64,000 nt of DNA from Lachnospiraceae bacterium (GTDB lineage Bacteria; Bacillota; Clostridia; Lachnospirales; Lachnospiraceae), in the NCBI GenBank assembly GCA_028693165.1, contig JAQUVX010000003.1:1-64000 (forward strand). The letters run 5' to 3'. The notes under the pieces were generated by a model that had not been told where the DNA came from, ran no database searches, and was given only the letters and a program-made list of their open reading frames with translations. Shown one piece after another: positions 19,553 to 31,789 of the stretch (positions are counted from its first letter, which is position 1; every line of letters begins with the position of its first letter). A program made the translations under genes and the position numbers.

Positions 19553-20209
19553 TTAATAGTCAAAATCGCCCTCTGATTCGATCAGTTCCTTTAAGGCTTC
19601 AACGGACTGGAGAACCAGACCGTCCTTTCCCTTTGCAATGATGCCCTGCTGTTTGAGCCGCGCCATGATCCGGGATACGGTTACGGAATGGCAGCCCAGA
19701 TAGCGGGACAATTCCATGTAGGTGAAGAACTTGGGAATGGTCATAAGACCATTTGTGTCATGGGATAATTCCAGCAGCAGCCTACAGAGCCGAACGCTGA
19801 CGGAATCCTCAATTCGGCTGTGGAAATGACTCAGCACCTCCACGTAATTTTCAGAAAGCGTATCGACCAAAAATAGAGAAAAATCGTGGTTTCCTTCTAA
19901 AAGCGTGCGAAAGGTATCTGGAAAAATCCGCCAGAGCGTACAGGGCGTACGCGTTACAACCGAGATTCCGAGTTCCAGGGTAATTGGCGTGGAAGAACGC
20001 TGCTTCCTCAGAGTAGGACTGAAACCGATGATTTTTTTGGGGTGGAAATACAAATAGACCTGCTCCTCACCTTTTTTGGTAAAGCCGGTCAGGGCACAGA
20101 TCCCATCTTCAAGAAGATAGACTCCCGCATCGGAGCTCAGAGTGACATTCTTGTCTACGTTCTGGCGAATGCCATACTCCGTAAGCATTTTCCAAAATAT
20201 TTCATTCAT
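19553..20209 (-). CDS. Crp/Fnr-family transcriptional regulator
   Basis: A 218-residue protein with an N-terminal cyclic-nucleotide-binding-like beta barrel (about 15-125), a dimerisation helix and a C-terminal HTH_Crp winged helix whose recognition region is YMELSRYLGCHSVTVSRIMARLKQQG (near 165-190). The FNR-type N-terminal cysteine cluster is absent, so it is not an iron-sulfur oxygen sensor; the effector is unknown. It is divergent from the permease-thioredoxin-arylsulfotransferase operon, and three TTTG-N-CAAA palindromes lie in between. It is the obvious candidate regulator of that operon. Confidence 0.88.
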   Translation of the reverse strand: MNEIFWKMLTEYGIRQNVDKNVTLSSDAGVYLLEDGICALTGFTKKGEEQVYLYFHPKKIIGFSPTLRKQRSSTPITLELGISVVTRTPCTLWRIFPDTFRTLLEGNHDFSLFLVDTLSENYVEVLSHFHSRIEDSVSVRLCRLLLELSHDTNGLMTIPKFFTYMELSRYLGCHSVTVSRIMARLKQQGIIAKGKDGLVLQSVEALKELIESEGDFDY

Positions 20210-20325: not shown

Positions 20326-20460
20326 TTTGACAAAGCCAGTGGAAATTCGAATCTTAAAGTTGAGTTATTGATAAGATTTTGTCAAAAGATAACCCATGTT
20401 ATAGAAAATACGCCCAATAAAATGTTAGATTCATAGATATGAATGACAGTTTTGTCAAAA
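20326..20460 (+). promoter_or_regulatory. Three phased TTTG-N-CAAA palindromes upstream of the permease operon
   Basis: TTTGACAAA (20326-20334), TTTTGTCAAAA (20377-20387) and TTTTGTCAAAA (20450-20460) are odd palindromes with centres at 20330, 20382 and 20455. The spacings of 52 and 73 bases are close to five and seven helical turns, so all three would face the same side of the DNA. They are likely operators for the divergent Crp/Fnr-like regulator (inference). The promoter itself is not obvious. Confidence 0.55.
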
Positions 20461-20499
20461 GCAAGAATGCGAAAAAAATGACAAAGGAGAAACAAAATT

Positions 20500-21993
20500 A
20501 TGCCAAATCCAGCAAACAAAGAAGTGATGGATGCAAAAGAGAGGAAGAACATGATCTATTCCGTGATCGGCGTGGCAATTATGCTGCTGTTCCGGTTTCT
20601 TCCGCTGAACCTTCCAGAAGTAACCCCGGTCGGCATGCAGGTGATCGGAATTTTCCTCGGAACTCTGTTCCTCTGGACCTTTGTTGACCCGCTTTGGGCC
20701 AGCCTGATTGCCATCGGTATGATCGGTCTTTCCGATTATGCTCCGATGCCGCAGCTTTTAAAAGAATGTTTTGGTAATGCGACGGTCGTGCAGGTATTTT
20801 TCCTGCTGATCATGTCCGGCGCCCTTGTTTATTACAAGGTTACGCTCTACATCGGACGCTTCTTCCTGACGAGAAAATTCTCCATCGGCAAACCATGGGT
20901 GCTGATCTGGGTAATCTGCGTGGGAACCTATTTCATGGCTGGATTTATCAATGCATTTACTGCCGTGTTCCTGTTCTGGGCGGTTATGTATGATGTGTTT
21001 GAGGAGGTTGGATACAAGAAGGGCGATGCGGCACCGCGCGTGATCCTGACGCTGATCGTGGTATCCGCACTGTGTGGTTTCCCGATGGCGCCGTATGCAC
21101 AGAATGGTCTGGCACTGTTAAGCAACTTCGCGAAGATTACCGAGACTCTGCCGGGCGGTGCTGTTCATGTGAACAACGGTGCTTATATGGCCGTTGCAAT
21201 CACAACTGGTATGCTGATGATTGCCTGCAACATCCTGATTGCAAAATTCGTATTCCGTCCGGATATGTCCAAGCTGAAGAACCTGGATATTGACAGCATG
21301 AACCGCAATCCGCTGCCTCCGATGAATCAAAGACAGAAGACCATCGTCGGCGGATTTACCGTATTGGTATTGTGCATGATGCTTCCGAGCCTGTTCTCCA
21401 AGATTCCGGGCATGTCGTTCCTGGCTCAGAATCTGAATGGACTTCCTCTGGTAGCCGTAGCTATTTTGGCAGCACTTAGAGCCGACCATGAGCCGGTTTT
21501 GGAAGTACCGAAGGTAATTCAAAATAACTTCAACTGGTCGTCTTACTTCATCATTGTTGCAGCAATCCTGCTCGGTGGTGTACTGACGAACGAGTCGACC
21601 GGCGTATCGGCGTTCCTGAAAGTGATTTTGTCTCCGCTGTTCACCGGACTGTCACCGGTAGCGTTTACCGTGTTCCTGCTGATTGTGGCTATGGTTCTGA
21701 CCAACATGTGCAACAGCCTGGTAATCGGTATGATCCTTCAGCCAGTTATTCTTACCTACTGCGTACAGAGCGGCGCGAACCCGGCTCCGATCGTTACCAT
21801 GCTGATCATCTTCGTACTTTTGTCAGCGGCGGTCACTCCGGCAGCATCTCCGTTTGCAGCGGTACTACACAGCAACAAGGAATGGGTTCCGACCAAATAT
21901 GTATACACTTATACGATTCCGTTTGTATTAGCCGAGCTTGCAATCATCATGCTTGTGGGTATTCCGATGGCAAACCTGCTGATGGCGGTATAA
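20500..21993 (+). CDS. SLC13/DASS-like anion permease
   Basis: A 497-residue membrane protein with about 12-13 hydrophobic helices and the arrangement of sodium-coupled di/tricarboxylate or sulfate permeases: two related halves, each with a helical hairpin region (for example ALCGFPMAPYAQNG near 190 and SAAVTPAASPFAA near 447). AAAGGAG precedes the start. It heads an operon with thioredoxin reductase, thioredoxin and two arylsulfotransferase-like genes, so the cargo is probably a sulfur-containing anion such as a sulfate ester. The substrate is inferred from context only. Confidence 0.75.
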   Translation: MPNPANKEVMDAKERKNMIYSVIGVAIMLLFRFLPLNLPEVTPVGMQVIGIFLGTLFLWTFVDPLWASLIAIGMIGLSDYAPMPQLLKECFGNATVVQVFFLLIMSGALVYYKVTLYIGRFFLTRKFSIGKPWVLIWVICVGTYFMAGFINAFTAVFLFWAVMYDVFEEVGYKKGDAAPRVILTLIVVSALCGFPMAPYAQNGLALLSNFAKITETLPGGAVHVNNGAYMAVAITTGMLMIACNILIAKFVFRPDMSKLKNLDIDSMNRNPLPPMNQRQKTIVGGFTVLVLCMMLPSLFSKIPGMSFLAQNLNGLPLVAVAILAALRADHEPVLEVPKVIQNNFNWSSYFIIVAAILLGGVLTNESTGVSAFLKVILSPLFTGLSPVAFTVFLLIVAMVLTNMCNSLVIGMILQPVILTYCVQSGANPAPIVTMLIIFVLLSAAVTPAASPFAAVLHSNKEWVPTKYVYTYTIPFVLAELAIIMLVGIPMANLLMAV

Positions 21994-22015
21994 GAATAAG
22001 AAAGGGTGAGAAATC

Positions 22016-22939
22016 ATGGAGCAATTTGATGTGGCAATTATCGGAGCCGGCCCGGCCGGCATGACCGCAGCCATCTACGCGGCACGGGCAGACATGAAGG
22101 TCCTGATGCTGGACAAGCTGGCACCAGGCGGACAGATCATCAATACCAATGAGATTCAGAATTATCCGGGTGTGGGAACCATCAACGGCGCGGAGCTTGC
22201 GTATCAGATGTTTGAACATACCCAGCAGTTCGAGAGTATTACCTTTGACTACGGCACGGTTCGAGAGATCCGTGAAGAAGAAGGAAAAAAGATCATCTGC
22301 TGCGAGGAGGATGACCGGGAATTCGCGGCGACGGCAGTGATTCTGGCTACTGGAACCCGCCCGCGCTGCCTGGAGATTCCGGGCGAGGACAACTTCCGCG
22401 GAAACGGCATCAGCTGGTGCGCAATCTGTGATGGCGCGCAGTACCGTGACCGCGACGTGGTGGTCATCGGCGGCGGCAACTCCGCGGTGGAAGAATCGAT
22501 CTTCCTGGCGGGCATCGTCAAATCCCTGACGGTTGTGACGATGTTTGATCTGACGGCAGACCCGATCGCCTGTGACAAGCTGAGAGCGATGCCAAACGTG
22601 AAGGTTTACCCGTATCAGGATATCCTCGATTTCACAGGAGAAGAGAAACTGACCGGAGTTCATTTCAAATCCACGGAGACGGGGGAAGAACATACCGTAT
22701 CCTGCGATGGCGTGTTTGAATACATCGGTCTGATCCCGACGACAGAGTTTATGAAGAGTCTGGGTGTGTTAAACCAGATGGGCTATGTCGAGGTGGATGC
22801 GCGCATGACCACGAAGGTGCCGGGCTTTTTCGGAGCAGGGGACTGTGTGACCAAGAATCTGCGCCAGGTGATTACGGCCTGTGCGGACGGCGCGATCGCT
22901 GCTCAGGAAGCAGCACATTATGTGGAATCGCTGAGATAA
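22016..22939 (+). CDS. trxB: Thioredoxin reductase
   Basis: A 307-residue FAD/NADPH flavoprotein that reduces thioredoxin. FAD-binding GAGPAGMTAAIYAARA is at residues 11-26, the redox-active pair is Cys135/Cys138 (CAIC, a slight variant of the usual CATC) and the NADPH-binding GGGNSAVEE is near 159. It follows the permease after 22 bases and precedes a thioredoxin gene, so this is a dedicated thioredoxin system for the operon rather than merely the housekeeping copy, although no other copy can be checked in this window. Confidence 0.93.
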   Translation: MEQFDVAIIGAGPAGMTAAIYAARADMKVLMLDKLAPGGQIINTNEIQNYPGVGTINGAELAYQMFEHTQQFESITFDYGTVREIREEEGKKIICCEEDDREFAATAVILATGTRPRCLEIPGEDNFRGNGISWCAICDGAQYRDRDVVVIGGGNSAVEESIFLAGIVKSLTVVTMFDLTADPIACDKLRAMPNVKVYPYQDILDFTGEEKLTGVHFKSTETGEEHTVSCDGVFEYIGLIPTTEFMKSLGVLNQMGYVEVDARMTTKVPGFFGAGDCVTKNLRQVITACADGAIAAQEAAHYVESLR

Positions 22940-22999
22940 AATCATTAAGATAAGAAGTATGACAAACAAAATTACAGAAAGAAAGTGAGGACAGTGATT

Positions 23000-23311
23000 A
23001 TGATGAAACAGGTAGAAGCTGCCGAATTTAAAGAACTGGCCGGCAAGGGACTGGTGATGGGAGAATTCTTTTCCACCACCTGTGGTCCGTGCAAGATGCT
23101 GGCATTTGTACTGAAGGATGTTCAGAAAGAGATCGGCGAGGATCTGACGATTTTGCAGGTTGATTTCGACAAGAACAAGGAGCTGACCGCAGAGTACGGC
23201 GTGACCGGTTATCCGACCATGGTGCTGTTGAAGGACGGACAGGAAGTAGGACGTATGCAGGGCCTTCAGCAGAAGCCGGCAATCGTAAAGATGATCAAAG
23301 TGAACCAGTAA
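23000..23311 (+). CDS. trxA: Thioredoxin
   Basis: A 103-residue thioredoxin with active-site CGPC at Cys28-Cys31 and the conserved cis-proline region GYPTMVLL near 74. The usual tryptophan before the active-site cysteine is replaced (STTCGPCK), as in several clostridial thioredoxins. The start is taken at ATG 23000, with GTGAGGA about eight bases upstream. It lies between trxB and the first arylsulfotransferase-like gene and probably receives electrons from the former; its partner in this operon is unproven. Confidence 0.92.
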   Translation: MMKQVEAAEFKELAGKGLVMGEFFSTTCGPCKMLAFVLKDVQKEIGEDLTILQVDFDKNKELTAEYGVTGYPTMVLLKDGQEVGRMQGLQQKPAIVKMIKVNQ

Positions 23312-23335
23312 CTTTTTATAATAGAAGGAGGGCTT

Positions 23336-25204
23336 ATGGAGACAATCAAATACACCTACAAAGAAAACTGGCTGGCTGTGCAGGAGAAAGCGGAGCAGGA
23401 GATGCTTGCGGAACTGGAACAGGGCAATTACACACTGGAGCACCCGCTGGTAAAATACAACTTATACAGCATCAGCCCGCTTACAGCGGTGGTTGCGTTC
23501 AAGACCCCGGAGGAGACGGCGATCACACTGACCGTGAAGGGCAAGACAAAACAGGCAGATATGTACCACACCTTTCCAAAGGCAAAGACCCACATCCTTC
23601 CGGTGCTGGGACTGTACAACAACTATTTGAACACCATTGAGCTTCGCCCGTATCGGGGAACGGCATCGGCCTTTACGATCCAGACACCGGATACCTATGA
23701 AGGCAAAGAGATCAAGGCCGTGATGAAGACTACACCGGAGTATTTGCAGGACAACCTGATTTTTGAGGCTCCGGCGGATGAGAATCTGGCTTCCGCCTTT
23801 GACTATGCAGGCGATACGCGCTGGCATTTGAGTGTGCCGTGTATCTTCGATCTGAAACGGTTAAAGAATGGCCGCTTACTGATCGGAACAGATCGTCTGA
23901 TCAAGCTCCCGTACTATGTGAGCGGTCTGTACGAGATGGATATGGTTGGAAAGATTTACAAAGAATACTGCCTGCCGGGCGGTTATCATCATGACCAGTT
24001 CGAGATGCCGAACGGCGATCTCCTTTCCCTGACGGAGGATTTCCACACGGATACCGTGGAAGATATGCTGGTGCTGATCGACCGTGAGACCGGCGCGATC
24101 AAGAAAACCTGGGATTACAAGAACTTCTTAAAACCGGGATGCAGTAAATCCGGAAGCTGGAGCGACGAGGACTGGTTCCATAACAACGCGGTCTGGTACG
24201 ACGAGAACACGAATTCCCTGACCTTGTCCGGCCGTCATATCGACGCGATGGTAAACATCGATTATGAGACTGGCAAGCTGAACTGGATCATCGGCGATCC
24301 GGAGGGCTGGGATGAAGAATATCTTCCTTATATGTTCAAACCGGAGGGGGATGAATTCGACTGGCAGTATGAGCAGCACGCCTGTGTGATCACTCCGGAC
24401 GGAGATGTGATGTGTTTTGACAACCATCATTATGGCTCCAAGAACAAAGAGACTTACAAGAAAGCGAAAGACAGCTATTCCCGCGGTGTTCGTTTCCGCA
24501 TCAATACGAAGGATAAGACCATTCGTCAGATCTGGCAGTACGGCAAGGAGCAGGGCGCAGAGTTTTTCTCTCCGTATATCTGCAACGTGGAATATTACAA
24601 CGAAGGACATTACATGGTTCATTCCGGCGGTATTTCCTATATGAACGGAGAGCCGGCTGAGTCGCTTGGCGCATTTACCCGCAACATGCCGGGCGGAACC
24701 TTAGAGACCCGCACCGTGGAGGTGTGTGACGGCAAGGTAATGCTGGAGCTTACCCTTCCGGCAAACTACTACCGTGCAGAGAAGCTGAAACTGTACACCG
24801 ATGGCACGAATCTGGATCTGGGAGCTGGAAAACAGCTTGGAACCATGGGCGTGACACCGGAATTTGAGACCGATATTCCGATGGAACCGTGCGGGGAACT
24901 GCTGCCGGCGTCCTGCGAGGCCAGCATCGAGGAGGAGGATGACCGCTTCACCTTCCACTCCAAATTTGAGAAGGGACAGATGGTTATGCTGCTTCTGGAA
25001 GGAAAGAACGGCGAGGAGAGCCATCGTTACTATATCTCGACGACTGCGGTTCCGTACCTGGCTATGTGCTGCGGCACTTTCATGGATTCGGATGAGCGCA
25101 GTACCAGAACCTTCGTAAACAAAGCAGGAATCACCGGCGAGTATGATGTCAGAGTGATCATTGACGACAAGAAATATGAGACCGGAATCTGCATTAAATG
25201 TTAA
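23336..25204 (+). CDS. Arylsulfotransferase (AssT)-family protein, copy 1, no signal peptide
   Basis: A 622-residue beta-propeller protein of the arylsulfotransferase family, which moves the sulfuryl group between phenolic esters without PAPS. Conserved histidines are at 218-219 (GGYHHD), 282 (DWFHNN), 301 (SGRH), 348 (QHAC) and 364-365 (DNHH), with the NWIIGDPEGW strand near 316-325. An N-terminal beta domain (about 35-115) precedes the propeller. Unlike the periplasmic E. coli enzyme it begins with a charged N-terminus and no signal peptide, so it should be cytoplasmic. AGAAGGAGG precedes the start. A paralogue follows after 14 bases. True substrates are unknown. Confidence 0.85.
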   Translation: METIKYTYKENWLAVQEKAEQEMLAELEQGNYTLEHPLVKYNLYSISPLTAVVAFKTPEETAITLTVKGKTKQADMYHTFPKAKTHILPVLGLYNNYLNTIELRPYRGTASAFTIQTPDTYEGKEIKAVMKTTPEYLQDNLIFEAPADENLASAFDYAGDTRWHLSVPCIFDLKRLKNGRLLIGTDRLIKLPYYVSGLYEMDMVGKIYKEYCLPGGYHHDQFEMPNGDLLSLTEDFHTDTVEDMLVLIDRETGAIKKTWDYKNFLKPGCSKSGSWSDEDWFHNNAVWYDENTNSLTLSGRHIDAMVNIDYETGKLNWIIGDPEGWDEEYLPYMFKPEGDEFDWQYEQHACVITPDGDVMCFDNHHYGSKNKETYKKAKDSYSRGVRFRINTKDKTIRQIWQYGKEQGAEFFSPYICNVEYYNEGHYMVHSGGISYMNGEPAESLGAFTRNMPGGTLETRTVEVCDGKVMLELTLPANYYRAEKLKLYTDGTNLDLGAGKQLGTMGVTPEFETDIPMEPCGELLPASCEASIEEEDDRFTFHSKFEKGQMVMLLLEGKNGEESHRYYISTTAVPYLAMCCGTFMDSDERSTRTFVNKAGITGEYDVRVIIDDKKYETGICIKC

Positions 25205-25218
25205 GAGAGGAGATTCGT

Positions 25219-27096
25219 ATGGGCGTTGATTTCAGAGAAGTAGTACACGTGATTGATAAGCAGACTGAGGCGGAAAACGCATTTCTCGCAGAGTATGCTG
25301 CCGGAACCTATACCATTGAACATCCATATGTAAAACTGAATCCGTATCTGATCGCTCCGCTGACCGCGCTGGTAATGTTTGAGACCGCGGCACCCGCATT
25401 TGCCAAGGTTACGGTGAAAGGAAAAGCGGCTGCTGGCGATATGATGTATCGTCCCGTAAGCTGTGCGAAGAAGATGGTGCTTCCGGTATATGGTCTGTAT
25501 GAGGACTATGACAATACCGTCGTGATCGAGCTGAGCACTGGCGAGCGCAAAGAGATCAAAATAAGGACTGAGAAAGCACCGGACAAATTAAAGAAACCGA
25601 CCAAAATCGAGACCACCCCGGAGTATCTGGAGGACAACGTGATTTTAGTTTCCCCGACCTCCCCGGCTTTCACGGCTGCCTATGACTATGCGGGAGATGC
25701 GAGATGGTACAATACCCTGAATCTGGCATTTGATGTGAAACGTCTGCGCAACGGCCGTCTGATCATGGGAACGGACCGTCTGGTTGCACCGCCGTATCAC
25801 ACGACCGGTCTCTACGAGATGGGTATGATCGGCAAGATTTACAAAGAGTACCGGATTCCGGGCGGCTATCATCATGATGAGTGGGAGATGGAGAACGGCG
25901 ATCTGCTGATTCTGACCCAGGAGCTGCCGAGAGGAACTGTCGAGGATATGTGCGTGATGGTGGATCGCCACACCGGCGAGATCTTAAAGAGCTGGGATCA
26001 TCAGGACGTCCTTCCGGTCTATCCGACAGGCGGGTCCGGATCGCAGGATGCGCATGACTGGTTCCACAACAATGCCGTATGGTATGACAAACGCACCAAT
26101 TCCCTGACCTTCTCCGGACGTCATCAGGACGCGATCATCAACCGCGATTTTGAGACCGGAAAGCTGAACTGGATCATCGGTGATCCGGAGGGCTGGCCGG
26201 AGGATATGCAGAAGTATTTCTTCAAACCGGTCGGAGAGCCGTTCGACTGGCAGTATGAGCAGCACGCCTGCATGATCCTGCCAAATGGCAATGTGATGTG
26301 CTTCGACAACGGACATTACCGTTCCAAAGTAAAGGAGAACTACATTCCGGCGAAGGACAACTTCTCCAGAGGCGTGATCTATCACATTGACACCGACAAT
26401 ATGACCATCGAGCAGGTATGGCAGTACGGCAAAGAGCGCGGAGCAGAGTTCTTCTCCTGCTACATCTGCAACTGCGAATACTATGAGCCGGGTCATTATA
26501 TGGTACACTCAGGCGGCATCGGCAAGCTGGACGGCGAGTGGCTGAACTTCCCGGGAGCTGCACTTTCCGATGAGCTCGAGAGCGGCAGAGCCGAACTCAA
26601 TTCCATTACCGTAGAGCTGAAGGATGACAAGGTGATGTACGAGATGCATCTGCCGGCCAACTACTACCGCGCAGAGAAGCTGCATCTGTATGACGCGGGC
26701 GATGTGCTGACCTTCGGCGCGGGCGAGCGTCTGGGCACTCTGGGCCATACCGAGGAATTCCTGACCGAGGCACCGGCGGAGCCGGCCGGCATGATTCCGG
26801 ATGATTATCATGCAAAGATCGCACGGGAAGCCGACCGCCTGGTATTCAAGGCAAGCTTTGAAAAGGGTACGCTGGTGATGTTGAATCTGGAAGGTCAGAA
26901 GGGTACGGAGGACCGCCGCTATTTCGTTCCGACGACCAAGAGACCGTTTTTGGCCATGTGTGTAGGCACGTTCCTGGAGCACGATGCAAGAGCCGTGGAA
27001 TTCCCGGTGAGCACGGAGGCATTGAACGGCACCTACAAGATTACGGTGACCATCGACGACAAGAAGTATGATACCGGAATTCAGCTGACATTCTAG
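25219..27096 (+). CDS. Arylsulfotransferase (AssT)-family protein, copy 2, no signal peptide
   Basis: A 625-residue paralogue of the upstream gene, alike along its whole length (shared GGYHHD, DWFHNNAVWYD, NWIIGDPEGW, QYEQHAC, QYGKE-GAEFFS and MVHSGGI blocks), clearly a tandem duplication that has since diverged. The putative catalytic histidines, including those at about 218-219, 283 and 302, are retained, so both copies may be active, perhaps with different donors or as a hetero-oligomer. No signal peptide. The start at 25219 is set by AGAGAGGAG; an ATG at 25198 overlaps the previous stop and lacks conservation. Confidence 0.85.
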   Translation: MGVDFREVVHVIDKQTEAENAFLAEYAAGTYTIEHPYVKLNPYLIAPLTALVMFETAAPAFAKVTVKGKAAAGDMMYRPVSCAKKMVLPVYGLYEDYDNTVVIELSTGERKEIKIRTEKAPDKLKKPTKIETTPEYLEDNVILVSPTSPAFTAAYDYAGDARWYNTLNLAFDVKRLRNGRLIMGTDRLVAPPYHTTGLYEMGMIGKIYKEYRIPGGYHHDEWEMENGDLLILTQELPRGTVEDMCVMVDRHTGEILKSWDHQDVLPVYPTGGSGSQDAHDWFHNNAVWYDKRTNSLTFSGRHQDAIINRDFETGKLNWIIGDPEGWPEDMQKYFFKPVGEPFDWQYEQHACMILPNGNVMCFDNGHYRSKVKENYIPAKDNFSRGVIYHIDTDNMTIEQVWQYGKERGAEFFSCYICNCEYYEPGHYMVHSGGIGKLDGEWLNFPGAALSDELESGRAELNSITVELKDDKVMYEMHLPANYYRAEKLHLYDAGDVLTFGAGERLGTLGHTEEFLTEAPAEPAGMIPDDYHAKIAREADRLVFKASFEKGTLVMLNLEGQKGTEDRRYFVPTTKRPFLAMCVGTFLEHDARAVEFPVSTEALNGTYKITVTIDDKKYDTGIQLTF

Positions 27097-27108
27097 TTGA
27101 TAAAAATA

Positions 27109-27137
27109 TTTACCTGACATCTCCGGCATGTTATAAT
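27109..27137 (+). promoter_or_regulatory. Promoter of asrABC
   Basis: TTTACC (27109-27114) and TATAAT (27132-27137), 17 bases apart, indicate that asrABC can be transcribed separately from the arylsulfotransferase operon. Confidence 0.65.
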
Positions 27138-27183
27138 GAAAAAGGATGTATAGGGTTCAATTCACAAAAGGAGGATAACAAAC

Positions 27184-28212
27184 ATGGGTCACAAAGTTAG
27201 TTACGAACAGGCAAATGCTGCGTTTGCGAAGCTCAGTGAAGAGTATGAGATCTGGGCACCGAAGCGTTTCCCGAAGAAAGGCCGGTATTCCGATACCGAC
27301 ATGATTCGTTATGACAAGGTAAGCAGCGTGGAGGAGATCGAGTATAAAGAGAAATCCGATATGCCTGCAAAAGAGGTATTAACTCCAATCAGTGAATCTT
27401 TGTTCTATTTCACTGAGGATGAATATATCGAGAGCAAGGCAACCAGCAAGAAGCTTCTGATCTTCATGCGTCCGTGTGATATTCACGCACAGCATCATCA
27501 GGAGAAGATCTACTTAAGCAACGGTAACTTCGAGGACATGTACTACAAGCGCATGAACGAGAAGGTGAAGATCGTCATGATGGAATGTACCGAAGGCTGG
27601 GATACCTGCTTCTGTGTAAGCATGGGAACCAACAAGACAGAGGATTATGCAGCAGCAGTTCGTTTCTGCGACGGCGAGCTTCTGATGGATGTAAAGGATG
27701 CAGAGCTGGCTCCGTATTTCGACGGAACCGCAGCAGACTTCAAGCCGGAGTACATAGAGAAAAACCAGATCTCCCTGACCATTCCGGAGATTCCGAACAA
27801 GGAGGTGCTGACGAAGCTTAAGAACCATCCGATGTGGAATGAGTACAACAGCCGCTGTATTTCCTGCGGTGCATGTACGGTGGCCTGTGCGACCTGTACC
27901 TGCTTTACTACAACCGATCTCATTTACAATGAGAATGCCAATGTCGGCGAGCGCAAACGTACCACCGCATCCTGCCAGGTAAAGGGCTTTGATGACATGG
28001 CCGGCGGCATGAGCTTCAGAAAGACGGCTGCGGATCGTATGCGTTACAAAGTGCTTCACAAATTTCATGATTACAAGGCACGTTTTAAAGATTTTCATAT
28101 GTGCGTAGGCTGCGGACGTTGTGTTGACCGTTGTCCGGAATTTATTTCCATCGTTGCAACCGTGAACAAGATGAGCAAAGCGATCGACGAGATCGTGGCA
28201 GAGCAGAAATAG
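27184..28212 (+). CDS. asrA: Anaerobic sulfite reductase subunit A
   Basis: AsrA is the ferredoxin-like electron-transfer subunit of the NADH-dependent assimilatory/dissimilatory-type sulfite reductase first described in Salmonella. The 342-residue product has the family N-domain and two [4Fe-4S] motifs near the C-terminal half: CISCGACTVAC near residue 224 and CVGCGRCVDRC near 307. AGGAGG lies before the start. Order asrA-asrB-asrC with 18-base gaps is the canonical operon. It gives the cell sulfide from sulfite. Confidence 0.95.
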   Translation: MGHKVSYEQANAAFAKLSEEYEIWAPKRFPKKGRYSDTDMIRYDKVSSVEEIEYKEKSDMPAKEVLTPISESLFYFTEDEYIESKATSKKLLIFMRPCDIHAQHHQEKIYLSNGNFEDMYYKRMNEKVKIVMMECTEGWDTCFCVSMGTNKTEDYAAAVRFCDGELLMDVKDAELAPYFDGTAADFKPEYIEKNQISLTIPEIPNKEVLTKLKNHPMWNEYNSRCISCGACTVACATCTCFTTTDLIYNENANVGERKRTTASCQVKGFDDMAGGMSFRKTAADRMRYKVLHKFHDYKARFKDFHMCVGCGRCVDRCPEFISIVATVNKMSKAIDEIVAEQK

Positions 28213-28230
28213 AGAAAGGGGGAAGATAAC

Positions 28231-29022
28231 ATGAATAATATTGTAAAACCAGTTGCCTGCAAGATCTTAGAGGTAAAGCAGGAAAGCAAACATGAGTATA
28301 CATTTAAAGTAGCAACCGATATCAAGCCAAGTCATGGTCAGTTCCTCCAGTTGTCGATCCCGAAGATCGGTGAGGCTCCAATCTCTGTGAGCTCTTACGG
28401 TGATGGCTGGATGGATTTCACCATCCGTTCCGTCGGTAAGGTTACCGATGAGATTTTCCAGAAGCAGGCGGGCGATACGCTGTTCCTGCGCGGTGCATAC
28501 GGCAAGGGATGGCCGGTTGAGCAGTTCAAGGACAAACACGTCGTAATCATCACTGGCGGTACCGGTCTGGCTCCGGTTAAGAGCATGCTGAATATGTTCT
28601 ACGATCAGCCGGATTACACCAAGAGTGTGACCTTGATCAGCGGCTTCAAGAACGAAGAAGGAATCATTTTCAAACATGATCTGGATCGTTGGAAAGATAA
28701 ATTCAACACCTTTTACACCCTGGACAGAGACCAGAAGGAAGGCTGGAATGTTGGCTTCGTAACGGAGTATGTATCCAAGATTCCGTTTGCATCGTTCGAT
28801 AGTAACTACGTTGTGGTTATCGTAGGACCTCCGCCAATGATGAAGTTCACCGGTCTGGAAGCAGTAAAATGCGGCGTGCCGGAAGAGAACATCTGGGTGT
28901 CCTTCGAGCGTAAGATGTCCTGCGCAGTTGGTAAGTGCGGACACTGCCGTATCGACGAGGTATATGTATGCCTGGACGGTCCGGTATTCAACTATACACA
29001 GGCCAAATATCTGGTAGACTAA
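28231..29022 (+). CDS. asrB: Anaerobic sulfite reductase subunit B
   Basis: AsrB is the FAD/NADH-binding subunit, related to dihydroorotate dehydrogenase electron-transfer proteins. The 263-residue protein has an FAD-domain stretch (ISVSSYGDG near 52), the NAD-binding ITGGTGLAPVKSM near 107 and a C-terminal cysteine cluster, MSCAVGKCGHC followed by a later C, that binds a [2Fe-2S]-type centre. It hands electrons from NADH to AsrA/AsrC. Strong ribosome site (AAGGGGGAAG). Confidence 0.95.
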   Translation: MNNIVKPVACKILEVKQESKHEYTFKVATDIKPSHGQFLQLSIPKIGEAPISVSSYGDGWMDFTIRSVGKVTDEIFQKQAGDTLFLRGAYGKGWPVEQFKDKHVVIITGGTGLAPVKSMLNMFYDQPDYTKSVTLISGFKNEEGIIFKHDLDRWKDKFNTFYTLDRDQKEGWNVGFVTEYVSKIPFASFDSNYVVVIVGPPPMMKFTGLEAVKCGVPEENIWVSFERKMSCAVGKCGHCRIDEVYVCLDGPVFNYTQAKYLVD

Positions 29023-29040
29023 GGAAGGGGGAATTTGATC

Positions 29041-30111
29041 ATGAATCATGATATTAATGTAAAGAAAGTTCGTATAAACTGTTACAGACAGTCAAAAGTA
29101 GCAGGAGAATTCATGCTGCAGCTCCGTGTTCCGGCAGGTCTGGTCAATGCAAAGCATCTGGCACTGGTTCAGGAACTGTGTGAAACTTACGGAGACGGTA
29201 CCTTCCATATCGGTACCAGAATGACCTTCGATATCCCGGGCATCAAGTACGAGAACATTGAAGCATGCAATAAGAAAATCAAAGAGTACATTCAGGATGT
29301 CGATGTTGAAATGTGCGGCGTTGACATGGAGACCATCGCACATCAGCCGGCAGAGTACGATGAGGATGGCGGATATCCGACCATTGGCGCACGTAACATC
29401 ATGGCTTGTATCGGCAACCGCCATTGTATCAAAGGCAATGCGAATACCCAGGAGCTGGCAAACAAGATCGAGAAACTGATCTTCCCGTCCCATTATCATG
29501 TCAAGGTTGCAGTTGCAGGCTGCCCGAACGACTGTGTAAAGGCAAACTTCAACGATTTTGGTATCATGGGTATCTACAAACAGGAGTATGATATCGATCG
29601 CTGTATCGGCTGCGGATGCTGCGTAGATGCATGTCAGCATGCGGCTACCGGGGTTCTGACACTGAACAAAGACGGCAAGATCGATAAGGATGCCTGCTGC
29701 TGCGTAGGCTGTAGTGAGTGTTCCATCGTATGCCCGACCGGCGCATGGAGCAGATCAACCAAGCCTCTGTACCGCGTAACCCTTGGCGGACGTACGGGCA
29801 AGCAGAACCCGCGTGCAGGCAAGCTGTTCTTAAACTGGGTAACCGAGGATGTCATCCTGGGTATGTTCGCAAACTGGCAGAAGTTCTCCGCATGGGCACT
29901 GGATTATCAGCCGATTTACTTGCATGGCGGACATCTGATCGACCGTGTTGGCTACAAAGAGTTCGTGAAGCACATCTTCGAGGGTGTTGAGTTCAATCCG
30001 GAAGCGAAGATGGCAGACGATATCTACTGGGCAGAGAATGAGCAGAGAGGCAATATGCACGTAATGCCGCTGTCTCAGCACAAACATGCCGGCCCACAGG
30101 AGAAGAAATAA
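29041..30111 (+). CDS. asrC: Anaerobic sulfite reductase subunit C (siroheme subunit)
   Basis: AsrC is the catalytic subunit, reducing sulfite to sulfide at a siroheme coupled to a [4Fe-4S] cluster. The siroheme-cluster ligands are in place: C-x5-C at Cys123/Cys129 and C-x3-C at Cys161/Cys165. A ferredoxin domain is inserted after them with CIGCGCCVDAC near 188 and CVGCSECSIVC near 221. Length 356. ATG at 29041 is preferred to an upstream TTG because of the GGAAGGGGG ribosome site. The gene for a siroheme-route enzyme lies just downstream. Confidence 0.95.
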   Translation: MNHDINVKKVRINCYRQSKVAGEFMLQLRVPAGLVNAKHLALVQELCETYGDGTFHIGTRMTFDIPGIKYENIEACNKKIKEYIQDVDVEMCGVDMETIAHQPAEYDEDGGYPTIGARNIMACIGNRHCIKGNANTQELANKIEKLIFPSHYHVKVAVAGCPNDCVKANFNDFGIMGIYKQEYDIDRCIGCGCCVDACQHAATGVLTLNKDGKIDKDACCCVGCSECSIVCPTGAWSRSTKPLYRVTLGGRTGKQNPRAGKLFLNWVTEDVILGMFANWQKFSAWALDYQPIYLHGGHLIDRVGYKEFVKHIFEGVEFNPEAKMADDIYWAENEQRGNMHVMPLSQHKHAGPQEKK

Positions 30112-30113
30112 GA

Positions 30114-30287
30114 TTGACTCGCTGTAAATTTGTGATAAAATGAGTGCTAGTGAGCCACGAGCAAGCTTGCTCATAGCGAACGGCGAATGACGATCATGAT
30201 AGCTGCGAAGCAGCGTCAAGCGCTGAAGGCGCAGATCGTGATATTATAAAAGAAGCCAGGGGTGCCGATTCGGTGTCCCTGGTTTTT
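30114..30287 (+). promoter_or_regulatory. Structured leader or palindromic element with terminator, upstream of the siroheme gene
   Basis: TTGACT (30114-30119) and TAAAAT (30136-30141), 16 bases apart, could start an RNA. It contains a run of palindromes: GAGCAAGCTTGCTC (about 30160-30173), ATCATGAT, GCTGC-GAA-GCAGC and GCGC-TGAAG-GCGC, the last two enclosed by ACGATC/GATCGT to give a three-way junction. A terminator follows (CCAGGG 30256-30261, CCCTGG 30277-30282, TTTTT). It may be a regulatory leader, or a REP-like intergenic repeat next to the asr terminator. I recognise no riboswitch class. Confidence 0.5.
30256..30287 (+). terminator. Terminator after asrABC, before the siroheme gene
   Basis: CCAGGG-GTG-CCG loop CGG-TGT-CCCTGG followed by TTTTT. 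It closes the asr transcript or, if the structured leader is real, attenuates the next gene. Confidence 0.8.
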
Positions 30288-30315
30288 GTAAAATCAGGGA
30301 ATGGGAGAGTGTAAG

Positions 30316-31008
30316 ATGGCGTATTTTCCGTTTTTTATGGATATGGAACAGATGAAGGGGCTGGTGATCGGCGGCGGAGTTGTGGCTTCCCGGAAGATCC
30401 GGCTGCTTCTTCCTTTTGAAGCAGACCTTCACGTGGTGGCGGCGGAGGCTTTGCCGGAGCTGGTGCAGCTGGCGCAGGAAGGCCGGATTCACTTAAGCGT
30501 GCGGAAGTTTGACTGGAACGATCTGGAAGGGATGGATTATGTGGTGGCGGCTTCTTCCGATGAAGCACTGAACCGGAGCGTGTCCGAGCGCTGCAAGGAG
30601 CGGCGGATACCCATCAATGTGGTGGATGTGAAGGAGGAATGCTCCTTTATTTTTCCGTCTCTGGTGCAGGACGGCTGCATCACGGCGGGCATTTCCACCG
30701 GCGGAAACAGTCCCTATCTGGCAAAATATTTAAAGCAGAGGGTGCGGGAGGCGATCCCGGAGGGGATTGGGCAGACCGCGGATATGCTTGGCGCATTCCG
30801 CCCCATGGTCAAGGAACGGATTAAATCCCAGAAGGTGCGGGAGCAGATCTTTACGGAGTTGGCCGAGCTGGTGCTGGGGGGAGTTGCCGGGGTCGATGCT
30901 ATCGAGGCTGCTGCCGGGGTAGATGCCGCAAAGCCGCGGGAGCTGACGGAGGCTGAGGTGGAAGCTGTGATCCAAAAGCATGTAAAAAATAATGCACAAA
31001 TTGGATAA
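30316..31008 (+). CDS. Precorrin-2 dehydrogenase / sirohydrochlorin ferrochelatase-like (siroheme synthesis)
   Basis: A 230-residue protein of the Met8p/CysG-N type, which oxidises precorrin-2 to sirohydrochlorin with NAD+ and in some members inserts iron. The NAD-binding GLVIGGGVVASRKIRLLL is near residues 14-31 and the family's F-P-S-L-V-Q-D-G-C-I-T-A-G-I-S-T-G-G region is near 112-130. ATG at 30316 follows GGGAGA; an ATG at 30301 has no ribosome site. Siroheme is the cofactor of AsrC just upstream, which makes the placement functional. No hem or other siroheme gene is nearby. Confidence 0.88.
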   Translation: MAYFPFFMDMEQMKGLVIGGGVVASRKIRLLLPFEADLHVVAAEALPELVQLAQEGRIHLSVRKFDWNDLEGMDYVVAASSDEALNRSVSERCKERRIPINVVDVKEECSFIFPSLVQDGCITAGISTGGNSPYLAKYLKQRVREAIPEGIGQTADMLGAFRPMVKERIKSQKVREQIFTELAELVLGGVAGVDAIEAAAGVDAAKPRELTEAEVEAVIQKHVKNNAQIG

Positions 31009-31108: not shown

Positions 31109-31789
31109 ATGAGTGGAACATTATACGGAGTAGGGGTTGGACCGGGAGACCCGAAGCTGATGACTTATCTTGCGGTGGAGACGATTGAGAAATGTCCGGT
31201 GATTGCGGTACCGGCAGAGGGCAAGGAGTATGCGGTCAGCTACAAGATCGCAAGCGGGTTGATTCAGGATCTGGATCAGAAGGAATGTCTGAATCTCTCG
31301 ACTCCCATGACGAAGGAAAAAGAGGTGCTTGCGGCGAACTATCAGGCAGCAGCGGCACAGATCATAGAGAAATTACAGGAAGGAAAGGACGTGGCGTATC
31401 TGACGCTGGGCGATCCAACGATTTATTCGACCTATATTTACATTCACCGTCTGGTGAAGGAGCAGGGATATGAGGCAGAGATTGTCAGCGGCGTGCCGTC
31501 TTTTTGTTCCGTGGCGGCGGAGCTGGGAGACAGTCTGGTGGATCGTGCCGAGCAGCTCCACGTGATTCCGACCAATTATAATATTGATGAGGCGATCGGG
31601 CTTCCGGGGACGAAGATTCTCATGAAAGCCGCTTCCAAGCTCTCTGTGATGAAGGAGACGCTGCAGAGCCGTGGAATCGACGGCGCTATGGTGGAAAACT
31701 GTGGAATGCCCGACGAGAAAATCTACCACAGTGTAGAGGAGATTCCGGAGAAGGCAAGCTACTACTCGATCGTGGTAATCAAAGAGTGA
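31109..31789 (+). CDS. cbiL: Precorrin-2 / cobalt-factor II C20-methyltransferase
   Basis: A 226-residue SAM-dependent tetrapyrrole methylase. The family's YGVGVGPGDPKLMTYLAVE opening is near residues 5-23, a second SAM motif TLGDPTIYSTY is near 100, and a central G-V-P-S-F stretch is near 133. CbiL/CobI methylates C20 of the corrinoid ring during cobalamin synthesis. Its presence beside the siroheme enzyme puts both branches from precorrin-2 together. No other cobalamin gene is visible in the window, so it is an isolated member. Ribosome site AGAGGAAATG before the start. Confidence 0.9.
   Translation: MSGTLYGVGVGPGDPKLMTYLAVETIEKCPVIAVPAEGKEYAVSYKIASGLIQDLDQKECLNLSTPMTKEKEVLAANYQAAAAQIIEKLQEGKDVAYLTLGDPTIYSTYIYIHRLVKEQGYEAEIVSGVPSFCSVAAELGDSLVDRAEQLHVIPTNYNIDEAIGLPGTKILMKAASKLSVMKETLQSRGIDGAMVENCGMPDEKIYHSVEEIPEKASYYSIVVIKE

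Follow-up and report, generated by a model that had tools for sequence, protein, structure and literature searches.

Why should a bacterium keep a thioredoxin and its reductase directly beside two signal-less relatives of the arylsulfate sulfotransferase AssT, with an anaerobic sulfite reductase following on the same strand? The question is raised by a 64,000-nucleotide stretch of DNA from a Lachnospiraceae bacterium (the window, by which we mean the whole stretch that was analysed), in which genes for an anion permease, a thioredoxin reductase (TrxB), a thioredoxin (Trx), two AssT-family proteins (here AST1 and AST2, and AST for their homologues in general), the three subunits of anaerobic sulfite reductase (AsrABC) and a Met8-like enzyme follow one another. 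A preliminary description of the window had read these genes as a possible module that converts an organosulfate into sulfide. All of the genes that it named are present on the plus strand with Pfam or NCBIfam matches and, judged from their sequences, those listed above are real and apparently catalytically intact. We propose, with moderate confidence, that the operon uses thioredoxin to drive the reductive desulfurylation of sulfate esters taken up by the cell. A joint action of AST and Trx is very probable, and gene neighbourhoods indicate that the link between them is far wider than the preliminary description had claimed.

AST1 (23336..25204, plus strand) and AST2 (25198..27096, plus strand), 54% identical to each other, reach 344.8 and 340.4 bits against PF05935, far above its gathering cut-off of 24.2, and each also matches PF17425. 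Neither they nor the permease have an NCBIfam match, and neither AST1 nor AST2 matches the sulfatase family PF00884. The preliminary description took both to be without a signal sequence, and this is borne out by the lack of a hydrophobic N-terminal stretch, the best 15-residue Kyte-Doolittle mean within the first 45 residues being -0.13 for AST1 and 0.49 for AST2. The active-site residues listed for Escherichia coli AssT, His252, His356, Asn358, Arg374 and His436 (PMC13426309), correspond to H219, H282, N284, R300 and H348 of AST1; AST2 carries the same motifs and the six-bladed propeller fold of the E. coli enzyme (3ELQ) is retained. At its C terminus, AST1 has an extension (residues 492-622) with no aligned counterpart in E. 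coli AssT.

Upstream of AST1 lie the genes for TrxB (22016..22939, plus strand), with a CAIC motif, and Trx (22985..23311, plus strand), with a CGPC motif. The identities that they had been given hold at the level of the family, since TrxB matches PF07992 and Trx matches PF00085 (81.7 bits), each with its CxxC motif. Both, however, fall short of the NCBIfam equivalog cut-offs (TIGR01292, 323.3 bits against 343.45; TIGR01068, 80.1 bits against 96.8), and they are therefore described as divergent members and not claimed as housekeeping equivalogs. The TrxB of the window shares 57-86% identity with TrxB of its own type that adjoin AST elsewhere, versus no more than 41% with the full-length paralogues of the source genome. 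Apparently, it is a dedicated thioredoxin reductase.

How general is this pairing? In a survey of 145 genomes of relatives, the source included, 19 carry a homologue of AST1 above 800 bits (AST1-positive genomes), and in all 19 AST adjoins both Trx and TrxB. Furthermore, a same-strand Trx lies no more than 5.2 kb from AST at 65 of 100 AST places and in 49 of 80 public loci, these being the best 80 of 98 confirmed with AST1 as query; paired AST share one Trx. The public loci contain 53 Trx matches in the 792 kb near AST as against 1 in the 637 kb of outer flank. One of the 65 places (L139) depends on a weak Trx match (46 bits) lying 4.6 kb off; TrxB is adjacent to AST there and the contig ends soon after. 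Trx-linked AST occur in gut Bacillota (Hungatella, Enterocloster, Lachnoclostridium, Diplocloster, Brotaphodocola, Longibaculum, Clostridium spiroforme and Solobacterium) and in sulfate reducers of two phyla (Desulfosporosinus, Desulfovibrio, Desulfobulbaceae and Desulforhopalus). A sample of 391 genomes of the class, drawn blind to Trx, yielded two beyond the source with AST above 700 bits, and both have TrxB, Trx and AST in tandem, two new close AST being too sparse for co-occurrence statistics.

The arrangement differs from group to group, with permease-TrxB-Trx-AST, permease-AST-TrxB-Trx and TrxB-Trx-AST-DASS among the gene orders, and the linkage label needs 11 changes on a quick AST tree of 108 rows. 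AST-linked TrxB appear to form three lineages on a quick tree with long branches. For that tree the main AST-linked group was defined as TrxB at least 50% identical to that of the window, plus two others, so that its recovery as a single clade follows in part from the definition, and long branches meet among the remaining TrxB. Some AST neighbourhoods are of another composition: an AST homologue at L060:5444-11150 clusters with a UPF0261 protein, a protein resembling phosphoenolpyruvate hydrolase and a DASS symporter, and L063, L138 and L143 hold similar clusters without Trx. At L061, a TrxB (61%) adjoins AST.

A second type of linkage involves a different thioredoxin. Eight loci from Desulfosporosinus that fall in the DsAST/DhAST group have another Trx beside AST; five of these DsAST-type loci (L133, L136, L137, L155 and L158) have a TrxB-Trx fusion alongside Trx and AST, L135 has Trx and a separate TrxB beside AST, and L144 and L154 have Trx beside AST with no TrxB close by. 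The Trx of L133 (Desulfosporosinus sp. HMP52) is 119 residues long with a CHVC motif, and the fusion there (L133:12460-13674, 404 residues), in which Pfam finds TrxB and Trx domains, lies downstream of AST.

A distant AST subfamily shows the association in its closest form. It was considered at 19 places, comprising 16 loci from 397 genomes of the family (source copy included) and three others, and a further copy in G852 stands outside these 19. Trx is fused to AST at 4 of the 19, directly adjacent at 11 and missing from flanks of about 1.5 kb at the remaining 4. The fusions occur in L179/L182, L184, L185 and L186. They are single open frames, their lengths being 616, 602, 605 and 604 codons, and both PF05935 and PF00085 exceed their cut-offs in the three that were scanned (L179/L182, L184 and L186); the frame at L179:1078-2925 (minus strand) has an NMT1-like solute-binding protein on one side and an ABC permease on the other. 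The source genome has a second AST-Trx site of this kind on contig C16 (L006:4686-7777), where a distant AST-like protein of 476 residues adjoins a CHVC-type Trx. A TrxB homologue is placed divergently at this site, and its C-terminal tail is, by eye, Trx-like without CxxC.

These observations bear on the simplest objection, namely that the neighbourhood arose by chance, or is bound to one lineage, and carries no function. Of the 19 AST1-positive genomes, 15 belong to one genus and hence are not independent, as such an explanation would have it. Against it stand the fusions, the several gene orders, the apparently several TrxB lineages, the two distant AST subfamilies and the two phyla, and it is already disfavoured by the repeated linkage, to the point of being highly improbable. 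The partnership of Trx with AST is, as far as gene neighbourhoods can tell, well supported.

If AST and Trx work together, what might the thioredoxin do? One answer is that it merely keeps the cysteines of AST reduced, or switches AST through a disulfide, while AST shuttles sulfuryl groups among alcohols and phenols and Asr serves some other source of sulfite. The AST of Cluster II, the group of enzymes that includes DsAST, are indeed cysteine-rich, with C245, C416 and C578 widely conserved, and the periplasmic AssT of E. coli has thiol partners of its own, DsbL and DsbI (PMC13426309). DsbL/I, however, oxidises, whereas TrxB/Trx reduces. The distant subfamily, in which Trx is adjacent or fused at 15 of 19 places, has no conserved cysteine in the body of the protein and one in the tail: within the first 470 residues, at most 8 of the 19 have a cysteine in the same column, and L183 has no cysteine at all over that length, nor do L188 and L189, both of which are Trx-adjacent. 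The tail cysteine is found, by eye, in 18 of the 19 and is invariant in 12 aligned rows; L197, which has none, has no Trx in its flanks either. With this lone tail cysteine, no conserved intramolecular disulfide is available. Since redox maintenance also leaves the co-occurrence of AST with AsrC, described below, unexplained, we regard it as unlikely.

Under reductive desulfurylation, the reading that we favour, AST would move the sulfuryl group from a sulfate ester to its active-site histidine (H348 in AST1) and from there to a thiol, which could be a cysteine of Trx or the C-terminal cysteine of AST itself (C578 in AST1, the tail cysteine in the distant subfamily). Trx would then resolve the S-sulfo adduct so that sulfite leaves, TrxB would recharge Trx using NADPH and AsrABC would take the sulfite to sulfide. 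The net conversion would be ROSO3- plus two electrons to ROH and sulfite without ATP, and then to sulfide, a route that might serve as a cheap electron sink or as a source of sulfur. An aryl sulfate is the probable donor, because in the one donor study that PMC13426309 cites aryl sulfates were active and alkyl sulfates were not. C578 lies within a conserved A-[ML]-C-x-G-[TSA]-F...R stretch of the C-terminal extension and is kept in all 102 of the 102 rows in which this region exists (2 further rows lack the region); the model of AST1 is weakest around this residue (residues 571-590, block predicted local distance difference test scores of 56 and 69). Reductive release of sulfite as the outcome is what we would expect on the balance of these features, with reasonable rather than high confidence.

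Where would the sulfite go? Enzymes of the AsrABC family reduce sulfite to sulfide. In the window AsrA (27184..28212; TIGR02910, 433.5 bits, cut-off 323), AsrB (28231..29022; TIGR02911, 336.9 bits, cut-off 289) and AsrC, the catalytic NIR_SIR subunit (29035..30111; TIGR02912, 358 bits, cut-off 324), all on the plus strand, are contiguous and each exceeds its NCBIfam equivalog cut-off, and AsrC is the sole PF01077 (NIR_SIR) match of the source genome. Among the 145 genomes, 35 have AsrC over cut-off: 19 of 19 AST1-positive ones versus 16 of 126 others (Fisher 1.5e-14) and, within the genus, 15 of 15 versus 1 of 9 (Fisher 1.2e-5), p values that overstate the case as the genomes are related. AsrC scores fall at 357-376 bits in the 19 AST1-positive genomes plus G003 and G129, and at 472-585 in the 14 remaining relatives with AsrC. 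In a first PF01077 sample, which shares three of its 24 genomes with the relatives, 22 of the 24 are over cut-off, as are 19 of the 21 that carry Trx-linked AST; in a second, which includes G000 and G163 from earlier searches, 8 of 10 are, the misses being G307 and G558, the latter of 1.3 million bases with a sub-threshold match. The sulfate reducers that have the AST-TrxB-Trx set possess paired PF01077 frames with the size of DsrAB, and the AST-Trx module is thus not confined to organisms with Asr. AsrC was also found in three of the five distant-AST genomes in the AsrC survey (G000, G015 and G018). From these patterns, Trx accompanies AST more steadily than sulfite reductase does, the latter being a frequent partner; that sulfite passes onward to sulfide via Asr in the source organism is, to judge from its gene content, only slightly favoured. 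Two loci join AST and asr genes in other ways. In G012 (L066) an AST2 homologue lies directly 5' of asrABC, without AST1 and away from the AST-Trx unit, and in a metagenome-assembled genome of gut Clostridia (L153:2958-12725) AST is next to AsrA- and AsrB-like proteins, a TauE/SafE-family protein and an Fe-S flavoprotein that may be HdrA-like.

Alternatively, the true substrates could be S-sulfo compounds such as S-sulfocysteine or thiosulfate, or another anion that Trx reduces directly, with AST in a side role and sulfite again passing to Asr. Trx is able to reduce S-sulfo thiols, and the permease may import such an anion. That permease (20500..21993, plus strand) belongs to the CitMHS family (PF03600, 39.6 bits against a cut-off of 31.9) and is likely the importer of an anionic substrate; many Trx-linked AST have a similar permease or a DASS symporter close by, and a phmmer search found no solved relative of it. 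The AST-Trx fusions, however, and the linkage of Trx where asr is not adjacent, tie Trx to AST itself, and the sulfuryl-transfer motifs of AST are intact. We consider S-sulfo substrates improbable, somewhat more so than redox maintenance.

The chemistry might also run in the biosynthetic direction, AST sulfating or detoxifying cytoplasmic phenols while Trx/TrxB and Asr are general redox or sulfite-detoxification neighbours. The activity of AST in vitro is phenol sulfation by p-nitrophenyl sulfate (PMC13426309). The source assembly (94% complete), however, contains no match to PF01747, ATP sulfurylase, for making activated sulfate, and one type of TrxB-Trx accompanies AST in two phyla. This direction is accordingly given little credence, slightly less than S-sulfo substrates. 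The same assembly has no match to PF01507, PAPS (3'-phosphoadenosine 5'-phosphosulfate) reductase, anywhere, and PF01507 is not among the Pfam matches of any operon protein, none of which is thus assigned to CysH. The statement of the preliminary description that no PAPS reductase or APS enzyme is encoded therefore holds, as regards PAPS reductase and ATP sulfurylase, across the assembly, whereas its counterpart for sulfatases holds at the locus and not for the genome, which has 10 matches to PF00884. One of the 10 belongs to a phosphotransferase system gene cluster on contig C42 (L005:5662-13784), where three genes separate it from another AST paralogue (56% to AST1) that lies downstream.

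Several observations weigh against thioredoxin-driven desulfurylation. No Trx lies within 5.2 kb at 35 of the 100 AST places, and the C42 paralogue is among the AST with no Trx nearby. AST of Cluster II sulfate phenols in vitro with no Trx added (PMC11468790, PMC13426309), and such turnover needs no reductant. Thr501 of E. coli AssT is replaced by Ile415 in AST1, invariant across 25 alignment rows; as these rows include the locus of the source strain of DsAST, Thr501 is not family-defining and membership of the AssT family is kept. C578 occurs in 67 of 67 Trx-linked AST versus 39 of 40 without Trx nearby, so that the cysteine relay is a suggestion and direct attack by Trx equally compatible. 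Eight columns were tested for a cysteine specific to Trx linkage by comparing phylogenetically independent pairs from the AST tree; in no column did the median p reach significance, and these cysteines are not used as evidence. C416 is present in 66 of 67 linked versus 27 of 40 unlinked AST, but its pairs went the same way 2.4 times on average and the opposite way 0.0 times (median p 0.5), so few that p 0.05 is unreachable; C350 leans the opposite way (median p 0.625).

The connection to sulfite reductase has exceptions of the same kind. Only 8 of the 19 AST1-positive genomes have the asr genes adjoining the AST-Trx unit (source, G007, G015, G018, G038, G056, G069 and G082), a count in which G018 (L037) is included with AsrC at C2:228099 and G014, where the contig ends past the second AST, is not. 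Two genomes with Trx-linked AST, G156 and G168, show no PF01077 match, and both may be incomplete, the Trx unit of G168 running off its contig; G307, which is 97% complete, has TrxB-Trx-AST and yet no NIR_SIR match; and the distant-AST genomes G041 and G073 have no AsrC over cut-off. The outcome that the preliminary description had named as refuting, namely that AssT-trx operons might usually lack a sulfite reductase, is thus mainly dispelled by the AsrC counts, with the limited adjacency and G307 remaining as exceptions. Likewise, the organosulfate-to-sulfide reading of the preliminary description gains from a Trx partnership that extends across families and phyla, and loses from the asr adjacency, from G307 and from the sulfatase-family genes of the genome.

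The remaining genes frame the locus. A Crp/FNR-type regulator (19553..20209, minus strand; PF13545 and PF00027 over cut-off) is divergent from the operon, and an FNR-like gene is close to the permease in many loci of relatives. Beyond asrABC lies the Met8-like precorrin-2 dehydrogenase of the siroheme route (30301..31008, plus strand; TIGR01470, 156.8 bits, cut-off 62), which in L044 is followed by hemC and a TP_methylase-hemD fusion. Directly 3' of it in the window, at 31109-31789, is a precorrin-2 C20-methyltransferase of the CobI/CbiL type, a cobalamin-branch enzyme adjoining the siroheme-dependent asr genes. Promoter-like sites occur 5' of asrA (27109-27137) and 5' of the Met8-like gene (30114-30141), each with 10 of 12 matches; the overall count of 17 is near the shuffled mean of 13.4 (standard deviation 3.7) and thus demonstrates neither a single transcript nor a break.

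Which known systems does this resemble? By sequence, AST1 and AST2 belong to the same subfamily, with the same active-site motifs, as the PAPS-independent AST of Cluster II (DhAST, DsAST, HefAST and HhAST), known as tools for sulfation in vitro. The source strain of DsAST, Desulfosporosinus sp. HMP52, is that of L133, a match at the level of the strain only. Hungatella species carry homologues of both AST1 and AST2; HhAST was among five enzymes excluded because their activity was negligible or their biomass or specific activity low (PMC11468790), and identities to the L133 AST do not resolve which protein of H. hathewayi it is. E. coli AssT (3ELQ, 3ETS) differs in being periplasmic, in working with DsbL/DsbI, in its T501 (Ile in AST1) and in having no counterpart aligned to the extension that bears C578. 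The asr genes are equivalog-level in all subunits, and what distinguishes them here is the adjoining AssT-Trx module.

The closest parallel in logic is with PAPS reductase (CysH) and plant adenosine 5'-phosphosulfate (APS) reductase, in which a cysteine takes the sulfuryl group and Trx releases sulfite. The conserved cysteine on a flexible C-terminal element of AST, together with Trx, recalls PAPS reductase. Plant APS reductase has a fused Trx-like domain, to which the natural AST-Trx fusions offer a likeness. The comparison is one of working alone, as these enzymes belong to an unrelated family with a different fold and use nucleotide-activated sulfate. We would give even chances to the broader proposition that cytoplasmic AssT enzymes as a class supply the sulfuryl-transfer half to a widespread NADPH-thioredoxin organosulfate reductase. 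In gut Clostridia and sulfate reducers this would be a nucleotide- and ATP-free counterpart of PAPS/APS reductase, converting sulfate esters to sulfite in a direct manner.

We found no report in the open-licence literature, the scope of our search, that links cytoplasmic AssT with thioredoxin, and thioredoxin is unmentioned in the main texts of PMC13426309 and PMC11468790. For most PAPS-independent AST, the natural substrates and physiological role are described as open after more than 40 years (PMC13426309). The repeated Trx linkage and the AST-Trx fusions supply a concrete and testable role for AST. The gene content of the locus suggests that a gut bacterium may turn organic sulfates into hydrogen sulfide at low energy cost. 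If this is true, sulfide could be formed in the gut from sulfate esters of the host without free sulfate, and sulfate reducers would gain an acceptor that spares the ATP of sulfate activation.

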